63,644 nucleotides of DNA from an uncultured Lachnospiraceae bacterium. Lineage in GTDB: Bacteria > Bacillota > Clostridia > Lachnospirales > Lachnospiraceae. The stretch lies in assembly GCA_902793995.1 (NCBI GenBank), contig CADBFP010000008.1:1-63644 (forward strand), given 5' to 3'. A program made the position numbers and the translations under genes. Of the stretch, positions 28,817 through 63,644 are shown in pieces. Numbering within the stretch: the stretch's first letter is position 1; each line of letters begins with the position of its first letter. Below the pieces are notes generated by a model. It worked only from the letters and a program-made list of their open reading frames with translations, was not told the origin of the DNA and made no database searches.

Positions 28817-28843
28817 TTAGCACTCTTTTTGATTGAGTGCTAA
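28817..28843 (+). promoter_or_regulatory. CIRCE operator (HrcA binding site) of htpG
   Basis: A perfect TTAGCACTC-N9-GAGTGCTAA inverted repeat, the CIRCE element bound by HrcA. It lies 7 bp upstream of the -35 box of the htpG promoter. This places htpG in the HrcA heat-shock regulon. Confidence 0.95.
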
Positions 28844-28850
28844 AAAGTGC

Positions 28851-28879
28851 TTGACGAAGGTTTACTGGCTGTCTATAAT
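28851..28879 (+). promoter_or_regulatory. htpG promoter
   Basis: TTGACG (28851-28856), 17 bp, TATAAT (28874-28879). The predicted leader is about 355 nt long and consists mostly of a tandem repeat array. Confidence 0.85.
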
Positions 28880-28887
28880 GATACCAA

Positions 28888-29175
28888 GCGGGCTCATGAA
28901 GGCATGAGCCCCTACGAAATGCGCTGAACCTGTCTTCGTGGCATCAAGCGGGCTCATGAAGGCATAAGCCCCTACGAAATGCGCTGAACCTGTCTTCGTG
29001 GCATCAGCGGGCTCATGAAGGCTTGAGCCCCTACGAAGTGCGATGAACCTGTCTTTGTGGCATCAAGCGGGCTCATGAAGGCATGAGCCCCTACGAGATG
29101 CGCTGAACCTGTCTTCGTGGCATCAAGCGGGCTCATGAAGGCATGAGCCCCTACGAAGTGCGCTGAACCTGGCTT
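28888..29175. repeat. Tandem array of five family B elements, 60-bp unit, in htpG leader
   Basis: Unit starts at 28888, 28948, 29007, 29067 and 29127. Each carries the inverted repeat GGGCTCATGAAGGCATGAGCCC followed by CTACGA and a 30-bp spacer (ends CTTCGTGGCATCAA). The copies differ at only a few positions (one lacks 1 bp; the last is truncated). All lie inside the transcribed leader of htpG, so the RNA would carry a row of five hairpins. Confidence 0.9.
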
Positions 29176-29204
29176 CGTAGGGGTCGATGCCCACATCGAC
29201 CCGC
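29176..29204. repeat. Family A repeat closing the htpG leader array
   Basis: CGTAGGGGTCGAT-GCCCAC-ATCGACCCGC, directly following the truncated last B unit, 36 bp before the htpG start codon. Confidence 0.85.
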
Positions 29205-29240: not shown

Positions 29241-31277
29241 ATGTCCAAAAAATCACGCGGCAAACTATCCATACATTCGGAAAACATCTTTCCCATCATC
29301 AAAAAATGGCTTTACAGCGACCATGACATTTTCCTGCGGGAGCTGGTTTCCAACGGCTGCGACGCCATTACCAAGCTGAAAAAACTGGCTCTGATGGGCC
29401 AGACGGAAATCCCGGAGGGGCAGGAGCTGTGCCTCAAAGTGACCGTTTCTCCCGAGGCCAAGGTGATTCAGGTGGAGGACAACGGCCTTGGCATGACGGC
29501 GGAGGAAGTAAAAACCTACATCAACCAGATTGCCTTCTCCGGCGCGACGGATTTCCTGGAAAAATATAAGGACAAGGCCAATGAGGATCAGATTATCGGT
29601 CATTTCGGCCTGGGCTTTTATTCCAGCTTTATGGTGGCGGACAAGGTCACCATCGATACCCTCTCCTGGGAAGAAGGGGCCGAAGCGGTGCACTGGGAAT
29701 CCGACGGCGGCACCACTTACACCATGGAAGCCGGAGACCGAACGGAGCGGGGCACCCTGATTACCCTTTATCTCTCCGACGATTCCCGGGAATTCTCCAA
29801 TGAATACCGGGTGAAAGAAGTGCTGGAGAAATACTGCGCCTTTATGCCTTATCCCATTTATTTTGAAAATGCGGATACCCCCGTAGGGGCGACTATCAGT
29901 CGCCCGCAAAGCGAGGATGACGGCCCTTCGACAGGCTCAGGGACCGGGGTGGATGGCCCTTCGACAGGCTCAGGGACCGGGGTGGAGCCCGCCGCCCCCG
30001 TCCCGGTGAACGATGTCAGCCCTCTTTGGCTGAAAACTCCTTCGGAATGCACGGAGGAGGAGTACAAAGCGTTTTACAAAAAGCTCTTCCGGGATTGGAA
30101 GGATCCCCTCTTCACCATCCACCTGAACATGGATTATCCTTTCAATTTGAAGGGCCTGCTCTATTTCCCCAAGCTGAATCTGGAAACGGAGCCGGCGGAA
30201 GGCACCATCAAGCTTTTTGCCAACCAGGTCTTTATTGCGGACAATATCAAAGAGGTAATCCCGGAGTTTCTGCTGCTCTTAAAAGGCGTCATCGACTGCC
30301 CGGATCTGCCCTTAAATGTATCCCGCAGCGCCTTGCAGAACGACGGCTTTGTGCGGAAGATTGCAGACTATATCACCAAAAAAGTGGCGGACAAGCTGAC
30401 AGGTATGTTCAATGTGGAGCGGGAAAACTACGAGAAATACTGGGAGGATATTTCTCCCTTTATCAAGTACGGCTGCCTGAAGGATGACAAGTTCAGTGAA
30501 AAGATCCGCAAGGCGGTGATTTACAAGAACCTGGAAGGCAAGTATGTGTCCCTGGATGAGTATCTGGAGGCCTCTCCCGTAGGGGTCGATCCCCAGATCG
30601 ACCCGCAGGAAGAGGACGCCCCCGTAGGGGTCGATCCCCAGATCGACCCGCAGAAAGAGGATGACCCATCCAATGCCGACAAGCGCTCCGTCATCTATTA
30701 TGTGACGGATCCCGTTCAGCAGGCCACCTATGTGGAGATGTTCAAGGCCGCCGGCCAGGAAGCCCTCCTCTTCACCCATGCCATCGACGAGCCCTTTATC
30801 ACCCGCCTGGAAATGCGCTACCCGGATTATAAATTCTGCCGCATTGACTCGGATGTAAACGAGGCCCTGGCGGAAAACCTCAGCGAGGAGGAAAGCAAAG
30901 AAAAAGAGGAAGCGCTGAAAGCCGTCTTCAACAAAACCCTGGGGAAGGAGCTCCACGGCATCAAGCTGGCCCGGTTTAAAGATGCCGGCACGGCCGCCCT
31001 GATGACCTATGCGGAGGAAAGCCGCCGGATGCAGGATATGTTCAAGATGTACGGCATGGATCCCGGCCAGTTCCCCACGGAGGAAACCCTGGTATTAAAC
31101 AGCGAAAATAAGCTGGTGCAGTACCTGGAAAAGAGCGGGGAAGGCGAAAAAACAGAGCTGGTAGCCCGGCAGCTTTACGATCTGGCCCTGATGGCTCACA
31201 AGCCTTTAAGCGCCGAGGAATCCACGGCCTTCGCCGCCCGGAGTCTGAAAGTGCTGGAGCTGCTGATCCAGGCATAA
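29241..31277 (+). CDS. htpG: Chaperone HtpG (Hsp90) with in-frame repeat insertions
   Basis: A 678-residue Hsp90. The GHKL ATPase domain (residues 1-210) is intact: ELVSNGCDAITKL, VEDNGLGMT, GHFGLGFYSSFMV. The middle and C-terminal domains follow. The protein is longer than typical HtpG because of two stretches that match intergenic palindromic repeats: residues about 214-245 (element C plus two copies of D, giving PVGATISRPQ and GPSTGSGTGVD twice) at the N-M domain border, and residues about 446-471 (two copies of A, giving PVGVDPQIDPQ twice) in a middle-domain loop. Both keep the frame. The start ATG follows AGAAGG. It is under CIRCE/HrcA control with a long repeat-filled leader. Client-protein folding in the cytoplasm is the expected role. 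Confidence 0.95.
   Translation: MSKKSRGKLSIHSENIFPIIKKWLYSDHDIFLRELVSNGCDAITKLKKLALMGQTEIPEGQELCLKVTVSPEAKVIQVEDNGLGMTAEEVKTYINQIAFSGATDFLEKYKDKANEDQIIGHFGLGFYSSFMVADKVTIDTLSWEEGAEAVHWESDGGTTYTMEAGDRTERGTLITLYLSDDSREFSNEYRVKEVLEKYCAFMPYPIYFENADTPVGATISRPQSEDDGPSTGSGTGVDGPSTGSGTGVEPAAPVPVNDVSPLWLKTPSECTEEEYKAFYKKLFRDWKDPLFTIHLNMDYPFNLKGLLYFPKLNLETEPAEGTIKLFANQVFIADNIKEVIPEFLLLLKGVIDCPDLPLNVSRSALQNDGFVRKIADYITKKVADKLTGMFNVERENYEKYWEDISPFIKYGCLKDDKFSEKIRKAVIYKNLEGKYVSLDEYLEASPVGVDPQIDPQEEDAPVGVDPQIDPQKEDDPSNADKRSVIYYVTDPVQQATYVEMFKAAGQEALLFTHAIDEPFITRLEMRYPDYKFCRIDSDVNEALAENLSEEESKEKEEALKAVFNKTLGKELHGIKLARFKDAGTAALMTYAEESRRMQDMFKMYGMDPGQFPTEETLVLNSENKLVQYLEKSGEGEKTELVARQLYDLALMAHKPLSAEESTAFAARSLKVLELLIQA
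29882..29975. repeat. Family C and D repeats inside htpG
   Basis: 29882-29907 is a family C element (CGTAGGGGCGACTATCAGTC then GCCCGC). 29924-29942 and 29957-29975 are two family D elements (CCCTTCGACAGGCTCAGGG) with a 33-bp period, so the duplication is a multiple of three. All are in frame in htpG. Confidence 0.92.
30578..30651. repeat. Two family A repeats inside htpG
   Basis: CGTAGGGGTCGAT-CCCCAG-ATCGACCCGC at 30578-30606 and 30623-30651, 45 bp apart (15 codons). The sequences are identical to the copies in the intergenic array at 42453-42738. Confidence 0.93.
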
Positions 31278-40888: not shown

Positions 40889-42391
40889 ATGCAGCTTCAG
40901 GAAGCCCGTGAACAACTCCAAAAACTCCAGTCTCAAATGGCGGCCTATCGCCATGCCCAGGGCCTACTCAGCTTTGACGGTTCCACCACCGCCCCGAAGA
41001 ATACCACCGCCAACCGGGCTAAAACCCTCTCCGTGCTGGGGGAAGTCAGTTACAAACTCTCCACCGGAAAGGATACGGTAGATTTATTGGAATACCTGGA
41101 TGCCCGCAAGGAATCCCTTTCCGAAAAGGAGCAGCGCCAGGTTTTTCTGATGCTGAAAAGCATCCGTTTTATGCAAAAGATTCCCATGGATGAATTCCTG
41201 GCTTACCGCCGGCTGCTGGTGGAGTCCGGGGATGTATGGCGCCGAGCCAAGGAGCAGAATGATTTTGCCTCCTTTGAGCCCTATCTGGAGCAGATCATCA
41301 AGACCAAAAAACGTCATGCCGCCTACGAAGACCCGGCCATGGATCCCTATGATTACTGGCTGAATGAATATGAAACCGGTCTGAATCAGAAGACCTGCGA
41401 TACCTTCTTCGCTGCGGTGCGGGAGGGCATTGTTCCCCTGCTGCAGAAGGTTCAAAGCAGGGAGCAGGTTTCCGATGCCTGCCTGAAGGGGGACTTCCCG
41501 GAGGCGGATCAGGAAGCCCTTGCCTATTATCTCATGGACCGCCTGGGGCTGGACCGGGGTCATGTGGGTCTGGCCACCACAGAGCACCCCTTTACCACCA
41601 GCCTGGGCTCTCATTTTGACACCCGCATCACCACCCATTACCACCGGGAGGATGTATCCTCTTCCCTTTACAGCGTGATTCACGAAAGCGGCCACGCCCT
41701 CTATTCCACCGGTTCCGCCCCGGAGCTGGCCTACACGGTGCTGGACGGGGGCGTTTCCATGAGCATTCATGAAAGCCAGAGCCGCTTTTACGAAAATTAT
41801 ATCGGCCGCAGCCTGCCCTTTATCCAAAGCATTTTCCCCAAAATCCGGGAGCTCTTCCCGGCGCAGATGGAAGGGGTGACAGCGGAGGATTTCTGGAAGG
41901 CGGTGAACCGGGCAGAACCTTCCCTCATCCGCACCCAGGCAGATGAGCTCACCTACTGCCTCCATGTGATGGTGCGCTACGAGCTGGAAAAGCAGCTGAT
42001 GCACGGAGACCTGAAGGTGTGCGACCTGCCCGCCGCCTGGAATGCTTTGTATCAGGAATACCTAGGGGTGACGGTGCCGGATGACACCCGGGGCGTGCTC
42101 CAGGATATGCACTGGGGGGGCGGCATGATCGGCTACTTCCCCTCCTACGCCCTGGGCAGCGCTTACGGCGCCCAGATTCTGGCTAAAATGAAGGAGAGCC
42201 TGGATGTAGAGGCCTGCCTGGCTAAAGGGGAGCTGGAACCCATCAATGCCTGGAACCGGGAGCATATCTGGCAGTTCGGCTGCCTGTATCCCCCGGAAGT
42301 ACTGCTGCAGCGGGTATTGGTCGCTCCCTTTGACCCCGGATATTACATCCGATATTTGGAGGAGAAGTACACGGAGATATACGGGCTGTAA
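40889..42391 (+). CDS. M32 family metallocarboxypeptidase
   Basis: A 500-residue cytoplasmic zinc carboxypeptidase of the Taq carboxypeptidase 1 family. The zinc motif is HESGH in SVIHESGHALYSTG, followed by the third-ligand region SIHESQSRFYEN, and the characteristic AEPSLIRTQADELTY, DTRGVLQDMHWGGGMIGYFPSYALG segments are present. The length matches the family (about 500). It removes C-terminal residues from peptides, with broad specificity. It starts behind AGGAGG and has a divergent promoter shared with the GTPase-NYN gene. Confidence 0.95.
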   Translation: MQLQEAREQLQKLQSQMAAYRHAQGLLSFDGSTTAPKNTTANRAKTLSVLGEVSYKLSTGKDTVDLLEYLDARKESLSEKEQRQVFLMLKSIRFMQKIPMDEFLAYRRLLVESGDVWRRAKEQNDFASFEPYLEQIIKTKKRHAAYEDPAMDPYDYWLNEYETGLNQKTCDTFFAAVREGIVPLLQKVQSREQVSDACLKGDFPEADQEALAYYLMDRLGLDRGHVGLATTEHPFTTSLGSHFDTRITTHYHREDVSSSLYSVIHESGHALYSTGSAPELAYTVLDGGVSMSIHESQSRFYENYIGRSLPFIQSIFPKIRELFPAQMEGVTAEDFWKAVNRAEPSLIRTQADELTYCLHVMVRYELEKQLMHGDLKVCDLPAAWNALYQEYLGVTVPDDTRGVLQDMHWGGGMIGYFPSYALGSAYGAQILAKMKESLDVEACLAKGELEPINAWNREHIWQFGCLYPPEVLLQRVLVAPFDPGYYIRYLEEKYTEIYGL

Positions 42392-42402
42392 GTTTGTGAT
42401 GT

Positions 42403-42431
42403 GGCGGGCGCATGAGGGCATGCGCCCCTAC
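42403..42431. repeat. Family B repeat
   Basis: GCGGGCGCATGAGGGCATGC then GCCCCTACG, directly upstream of the family A array and 12 bp after the M32 stop. Confidence 0.85.
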
Positions 42432-42452
42432 GAAGAAGACGGATGATTTCTC

Positions 42453-42738
42453 CGTAGGGGTCGATCCCCAGATCGACCCGCCATTCCAGAGATACAGAAG
42501 ACGGATTATTTTTCCGTAGGGGTCGATCCCCAGATCGACCCGCCATTCCAGAGATACAGAAGACGGATGATTTCCCCGTAGGGGTCGATCCCCAGATCGA
42601 CCCGCCATTCCAGAGATAACAGAAGACGGATGATTTCTCCGTAGGGGTCGATCCCCAGACCGACCCGCCATTCCAGAGATACATAAGACGGATAATTTCC
42701 CCGTAGGGGTCGATCCCCAGATCGACCCGCCATTCCAG
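42453..42738. repeat. Tandem array of five family A elements, 62-bp unit
   Basis: Copies start at 42453, 42515, 42577, 42640 and 42702. Each unit is the 29-bp element CGTAGGGGTCGAT-CCCCAG-ATCGACCCGC (one copy has a base change) plus a conserved 33-bp spacer (CATTCCAGAGATAC... AAGACGGAT...). The spacers are repeated too, so this is not a CRISPR array. It fills the 42392-42817 gap up to the promoter of the cofE-like gene. Confidence 0.93.
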
Positions 42739-42747
42739 AAAAAACAG

Positions 42748-63073: not shown

Positions 63074-63644
63074 TTACCGGCTGCGCCGCTTTGATTCTTT
63101 TTTGTCCGTACCGGGCCAAATGACCGCCAGTCCCAGCAGAGAGATGCTCATCAAGGCAATCCACTTCGTCAAGCTGTTTCCATCCCCCATGGCAGGAATG
63201 CTCTTCCCGGGCATGTTCTGAGTCGGATCTTCCTGGGTAGGGGCTTCCTGGGTAGGGGCTTCCTGGGTAGGGTCACTGCCGCCGGGTTCATTGCCACCAG
63301 GCTGGTCGCCGCCGGGCTGGTCTCCGCCGGGCTCATCTCCACCGGGTTGGTTGCCGCCGGGCTGGTCTCCGCCGGGCTGATCACCGCCGGGCTCATCGCC
63401 ACCGGGCTCGTTGCCACCAGGTTCATTACCACCGGGCTCATTGCCGCCAGGCTCATTGCCACCAGGCTGGTCGCCGCCGGGGTCATTGCCGCCAGGCTGG
63501 TCGCCGCCGGGCTGGTCGCCGCCGGGTTCATTCCCACCGGGCTCATTCCCACCGGGCTGATCGCCGCCGGGCTGATCGCCACCAGGCTGGTCGCCGCCGG
63601 GCTGGTCTCCACCGGGTTGGTCGCCACCGGGTTGGTCGCCGCCA
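63074..63644 (-). CDS. Cell-surface repeat protein with sortase-type C-terminus (partial)
   Basis: The C-terminal 190 residues of a larger protein that begins outside the window. It has about 125 residues of a (G-G-[DN]-[QE]-P) repeat, then PTQEAPTQE, and ends in SIPAMGDGNS, a hydrophobic helix (WIALMSISLLGLAVIW) and a basic tail KKESKRRSR. This is the layout of a sortase substrate, although the motif is IPAMG rather than LPxTG. Other frames across the repeat are open too (for example 63169-63627), as the repeat has a 15-bp period, but only this one has the anchor. Presumably a surface adhesin or structural protein; function unknown. Confidence 0.8.
   Translation of the reverse strand, partial: GGDQPGGDQPGGDQPGGDQPGGDQPGGDQPGGNEPGGNEPGGDQPGGDQPGGNDPGGDQPGGNEPGGNEPGGNEPGGNEPGGDEPGGDQPGGDQPGGNQPGGDEPGGDQPGGDQPGGNEPGGSDPTQEAPTQEAPTQEDPTQNMPGKSIPAMGDGNSLTKWIALMSISLLGLAVIWPGTDKKESKRRSR

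Follow-up and report, generated by a model that had tools for sequence, protein, structure and literature searches.

In-frame dispersed repeats occupy two variable linkers of an HtpG chaperone

The htpG gene of an uncultured bacterium carries, within its reading frame, short repeats that are also dispersed through the genome, which raises the question of how such DNA came to stand in a conserved chaperone and whether the protein tolerates the encoded residues or makes use of them. A sequence-only reading had claimed that positions 29882-29975 of the window (the whole stretch of 63,644 nt analysed here, contig C8 of the 2.17-Mb, 64-contig source genome, G000) hold three palindromic repeats that had been inserted, in frame, where the N and M domains of HtpG meet. 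We found the segment to consist of one GTAG-type element and two D repeats with a 33-bp period, as had been claimed; it is translated as PVGATISRPQSEDDGPSTGSGTGVDGPSTGSGTGVE and lies in the N-M linker (linker 1) of an intact 678-aa frame, which in a profile search gives a near full-length match to the HtpG profile NF003555 (655.4 bits, with a cut-off of 371). Moreover, a second site, absent from that reading, lies at 30579-30649, where two GTAG repeats stand in frame in another linker (linker 2). The features of the gene are:

29241..31277, + strand: htpG, 678 aa, frame intact across both repeat sites
29862..30020, + strand: linker 1, at the N-M border, codons 208-260 (53 aa), the alignment columns between YPIY and PLW
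29883..29905, + strand: GTAG-type REP (family C of the sequence-only reading), GTAG tag, 8-bp stem and 3-nt loop, frame PVGATISRP
29924..29942, + strand: D repeat core, copy 1 (CCCTTCGACAGGCTCAGGG), frame GPSTGSGT
29957..29975, + strand: D repeat core, copy 2 (CCCTTCGACAGGCTCAGGG), 33 bp after copy 1, frame identical
30567..30692, + strand: linker 2, codons 443-484 (42 aa), aligned to E. coli HtpG residues 421-429
30579..30604, + strand: GTAG-type REP with TCGA stem, linker 2 copy 1, frame VGVDPQIDP
30624..30649, + strand: GTAG-type REP with TCGA stem, linker 2 copy 2, 45 bp after copy 1

The two kinds of element differ in their folding, and the earlier description of all of them as palindromic stands for the GTAG type and fails for D. 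By folding, the GTAG-type elements form an 8-bp stem with a 3-nt loop and a 9-bp stem with a 4-nt loop, and they fold better than shuffled sequences (z -3.60 and -3.25, and -4.48 for the linker 2 pair), with the GTAG tag preceding the stems at 29883, 30579 and 30624 and unpaired in the predicted folds. In the D element 12 of 19 positions are self-complementary and folding gives z +0.36 for the element alone and +2.14 for the pair, which rules out a strong palindrome; the fold of site 1 as a whole (117 nt) is likewise not better than that of shuffles (z +1.23). A constant end tag on D was looked for by eye in 30 sequence contexts and none was seen. Having neither a strong hairpin nor a tag, D is assigned to neither the GTAG nor the CGTC REP superfamily.

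Both kinds are present in many copies, and in this respect the claim that the repeats are dispersed was borne out. With up to 2 mismatches allowed, a search of the 2.17-Mb genome gives 79 copies of the D core and none of a reversed control pattern. The exact core (AAG or AGG form) has 74 copies in G000 and none in the 15 congeners searched, and we therefore take it to be recent in the G000 lineage; in a sample of 398 genomes from the phylum it was found in three, G000 included (74, 2 and 1 copies), and at least 120 stretches of viral contigs contain it as well. Five of the six reading frames of D are open. The exact TCGA-type GTAG element has 22 copies in G000 (control 0), one in the congener G011 and none in the other 14 genomes, and the linker 2 copies are letter-identical to copies at other places in the genome. 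GGGCG-type GTAG elements have many copies in the retrieved loci, one of which (L026) also contains the core found at 29883. Elsewhere in the window, at 42370-42743, lies a tandem array of units of about 62 bp with four TCGA-type GTAG elements identical to those of HtpG linker 2. A composite repeat, GTCGCCCTCACCCG...CACCCTC, stands at 10 places in G000, its inner hairpin stems varying with complementary changes, and in 3 of these 10 copies D takes the place of the inner hairpin.

To place the two sites within the protein family we used an alignment of 93 rows, comprising 12 HtpGs of the genus, the best 80 related loci (among them L051, a duplicate of G008) and E. coli HtpG; these best 80 relatives come from named genome records, largely Lachnospiraceae or other Clostridia, with one Synergistes. 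The genus sample was of 16 genomes, 12 of whose HtpGs enter the length table, G002 by way of a larger piece that holds both sites. The HtpG of G001, in two pieces, stands outside that table, with both sites visible in the congener alignment; three genomes were left unused, namely G013, where nothing matched, G014, with only a fragment of the C-terminal end, and G009, whose match has 34% identity. Linker 1 has 53 aa here, 35-69 aa in 91 other rows, 35-54 aa in the congeners and 22 aa in E. coli, and these lengths rule out the earlier statement that HtpG normally has no linker at the N-M border. Linker 2 has 42 aa here, 8-82 aa in the other rows, 34-52 aa in the congeners and 9 aa in E. coli. 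The repeats thus fill pre-existing, hypervariable linkers of HtpG. Since linkers of 53 and 42 aa are not longer by the length of the repeats, we assume that they replaced linker sequence or were offset by a compensating deletion. The aligned congeners do not have these repeat-encoded residues; the four congeners compared are 76-85% identical to this HtpG outside the linkers. In an AlphaFold2 model of the protein (32 sequences, mean pLDDT 75.6, pTM 0.66), pLDDT falls below 50 in four stretches (9-23, 115-123, 216-250 and 447-478), of which 216-250 and 447-478 coincide with the two repeat sites.

The same two linkers have received repeats in other members of the genus. Four of the 12 genus HtpGs (G000, G008, G002 and G007) have repeats in them, and these belong to several families: a hairpin element, CCCTCCCCC / CCCTCCCCCGCGTCCGGGGGAGGG, is found at both sites in G008 (with one mismatch at site 2) and at site 1 only in G002, and a TGTCATCCTGAGCGGAG element at site 1 in G008 and at site 2 in G007. 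With up to 3 mismatches allowed, the hairpin element CCCTCCCCCGCGTCCGGGGGAGGG has 52 copies in G008, 38 in G000 and 30 in G011, 2-9 copies in five other genomes and none in 8 of the 16. The HtpGs of G008 and G002 are 95.8% identical outside the linkers (381 aligned positions), with the site 2 repeat present in G008 and absent in G002; the site 2 lengths, 39 aa and 34 aa, respectively, show that in G008 the repeat took the place of linker sequence and did not just add to it. Hairpins number 21 in 27,201 linker bases versus 18 in 161,763 other bases, counts that take in nested matches and include G008 twice (again as L051). Three other relatives (L077, L101 and L125) have one unrelated linker hairpin each.

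HtpG is not the only protein of G000 to encode these repeats. When all 74 exact D copies were placed against the open frames, 16 of them fell inside 7 ORFs, where 'lipoprotein' and 'membrane' are descriptions by eye:

HtpG: 2 D copies
PurL: 3 D copies
Solute-binding lipoprotein: 3 D copies
Nuclease-domain lipoprotein: 1 D copy
DUF2344 protein: 1 D copy (two matched stretches counted, the one displayed preceding the repeat)
Surface protein with Listeria-Bacteroides repeats: 1 D copy
Membrane protein without a family match: 5 D copies

Several of the remaining copies are in long frames for which nothing indicates a gene, a further one is close to the C-terminus of a GNAT/2'-5' RNA ligase ORF, and a locus without a family match (L187) was left out of the intragenic count. 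ThiI (L011) and a GAF-domain ORF (L142) were considered as intragenic cases and rejected, the repeat being upstream of the likely start in both. Counted by gene, with the junction and C-terminal cases included, D is read as PSTGSGT in 4, as VPEPVEG/VPELVEG in 3, as ALRQAQGP in 2 and as SLSLSKG in 2, all small numbers; the frame PFDRLRD is used by none of the D-bearing genes counted. The junction case is an open frame on contig C44 (L190:1260-2720, + strand) in which D stands where a NadD-like and a HAD domain meet, possibly a gene fusion through the repeat. We also noted that a lipoprotein on contig C36 (L196) and window positions 29883-29921 have in common a GTAG-like element and a similar RPQ(S/N)EDD stretch, with mostly synonymous differences.

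PurL shows a like pattern. The PurL of G000 (contig C49, L195:1163-5116, - strand; TIGR01857, 1774 bits) has composite repeats of about 110-130 bp (by eye) in both of its linkers, in different reading frames. Repeats in both linkers were found in the PurL of 3 of 14 genus genomes (G000, G008 and G011), where the call for site 2 of G011 rests on a reading of the letters, without a hairpin match, and lone inverted repeats of 7 bp seen in G003 and G015 are not counted; the comparison leaves out G009, whose row is an unrelated long frame, and G001, which has no PurL match.

GTAG repeats also stand in front of the gene, where the upstream leader, which the sequence-only reading did not describe, has these features:

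28817..28843, strand not assigned: CIRCE-like inverted repeat upstream of htpG, by motif pattern
28851..28879, + strand: promoter-like site, TTGACG-N17-TATAAT
28890..29202, both strands: GTAG-type REP array of the htpG leader, four on the - strand and one on the + strand by pattern, with a variant sixth near 28949 by eye

The inverted repeat resembles CIRCE, the element linked to HrcA. The array sits between it and the start codon of htpG, and the distance from motif to start is 424 nt here. A CIRCE-like motif was found in 7 of 11 other congener loci, and there the distance is 101-143 nt.

A gene that is likely to be the mover of the GTAG elements lies on contig C7 of G000 (64289-64816; L002:1354-1881, - strand). 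This RAYT-like gene scores 62.6 bits with NF047646, below the cut-off of 80, and 21.8 and 23.2 bits with Pfam Y1_Tnp (cut-off 23), and its best solved match is TnpArep (4ER8, E 0.00049). It is flanked by GTAG elements, five on each side by pattern, which are of the GGGCG type like the element at 29883 and not of the TCGA type of linker 2. Of the 16 genomes, G000 alone has a close form of this gene, and homologues of about 40% identity are found in G006 and G013. A better-scoring Y1_Tnp gene on contig C4 (L001; 81727-82053), a second RAYT-like gene, was rejected as the mover because the inverted repeat at its ends is another one, of the GGGACGG...CCGTCCC type by eye. No mover for the D elements was found in our search.

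These observations have clear counterparts among known systems. As described by Di Nocera et al. 2013 (PMC3733652), GTAG REPs have GTAG at one end, a stem of 6-13 bp and a short loop, occur in high copy number, in dimers and in clusters, and accompany RAYT genes flanked by repeats; some copies lie in frame inside ORFs, and some genes hold two inserts. The tag, the stem length, the short loop and the high dispersed copy number are all present here, and the C7 gene with GTAG repeats on both sides fits the REPtron arrangement described there. The same paper reports different REPs at about one site of recB in two Xanthomonas species, a precedent for a shared insertion site. What the present case adds to those described there is its host, of a genus close to Lachnospiraceae, the presence of HtpG and PurL among the target proteins, and the filling of both linkers of each with repeats of more than one family in several congeners. 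Rickettsia palindromic elements (RPEs), as portrayed in the review PMC10969869, are palindromic repeats that lie in frame in unrelated housekeeping genes, and the in-frame insertions in HtpG, PurL and other protein-coding genes resemble them. However, by that account an RPE measures about 150 bp and contains an ORF that encodes a conserved peptide, whereas the units here are of about 20-30 bp and D is read in four frames. Among the matches listed from the open-licence PMC literature no title describes repeats inside HtpG, and the repeat letters used as a query gave no match in that literature. The in-frame repeats of HtpG thus represent an event of a type already known, clear and recurrent in this instance, and belong with REPs and RPEs.

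Taken together, we consider it highly probable that REP-type repeats were inserted in frame, and are tolerated, in two disordered linkers that HtpG already possessed. The GTAG-type elements would probably have been mobilised by a RAYT transposase, and the D elements would represent a separate high-copy family; local tandem duplication of the 33-bp and 45-bp units, each a multiple of three in length, may then have multiplied the repeats. Selection would have removed those copies that disrupted folded domains or the frame, so that surviving copies would lie in linkers, mostly with a reading frame that yields Pro/Gly/Ser/Thr or acidic peptides. Arrival by transposition, neutral tolerance combined with selection on frame, and the presence of the repeat-encoded residues in the mature chaperone are each presumed in this scheme. 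We favour tolerance over a function specific to HtpG because different families occupy the linkers of congeners and repeats occupy the linkers of PurL as well, and it is the simplest reading of the repeat residues.

Transposition may nevertheless not have acted at htpG itself. Both tandem units include non-repeat linker codons, HtpG and the solute-binding lipoprotein have in common a GTAG-like element with a similar QxEDD stretch downstream, and the two linkers of PurL contain similar composites of about 100 bp (by eye), all of which would fit recombination or gene conversion with other copies together with replication slippage. We regard this route as possible but somewhat doubtful, as G000 does possess a RAYT-like gene with flanking GTAG elements, and GTAG elements stand at many sites with unrelated flanks (in the G000 loci and in L147 from G011). 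That the assembly or the gene is at fault through artefact, contamination or decay of htpG is hardly credible: although the genome is in 64 contigs with completeness 93.05 and contamination 2.26, the 678-aa frame is intact with its near full-length family match, the protein shares 66-79% identity with 10 congeners and 56-62% with 21 other relatives, and repeats recur in other assemblies, in the HtpG of G008, G002 and G007 and in the PurL of G008 and G011.

Alternatively, the inserted peptide might be used, as a regulatory linker that would tune the N-M contacts of HtpG by analogy with the charged linker of eukaryotic Hsp90, which according to PMC11687934 modulates function through contacts of the N domain. 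The likeness to that linker, which the sequence-only reading had drawn, survives in position and in a charge that is still net negative (-7), and breaks down in composition, since linker 1 is a 53-aa stretch built from repeat DNA with only 17% charged residues, where the median of 79 related loci is 46%. With congeners having unrelated repeats or none at both sites, and with like repeats in the PurL linkers, we think such a role unlikely. Less likely still is that the elements act mainly as RNA, with hairpins in the htpG message slowing inter-domain translation or stabilising the transcript; the strong folds of the GTAG elements and the array in the leader are consistent with it, but neither the D copies nor site 1 as a whole fold better than shuffles, and in 9 of the 12 genus HtpGs both linkers lack any perfect stem of at least 8 bp.

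More broadly, we tentatively suggest, while holding it less likely than not, that across the genus the disordered linkers of conserved enzymes serve as standing landing pads, in which successive families repeatedly replace the linker sequence of HtpG and PurL while length and negative charge stay roughly fixed, and that mobile DNA is a main source of new linker sequence. If so, effects on the chaperone cycle would be possible. The repeats show how selfish or semi-selfish DNA can turn into the protein sequence of core enzymes and, since at these positions related species differ in their repeats or lack them, they offer a natural experiment on whether a linker needs a particular sequence or only length and charge. 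Finally, we observed a further tandem array, of 15-bp period, at the very end of the window (63218-63644).
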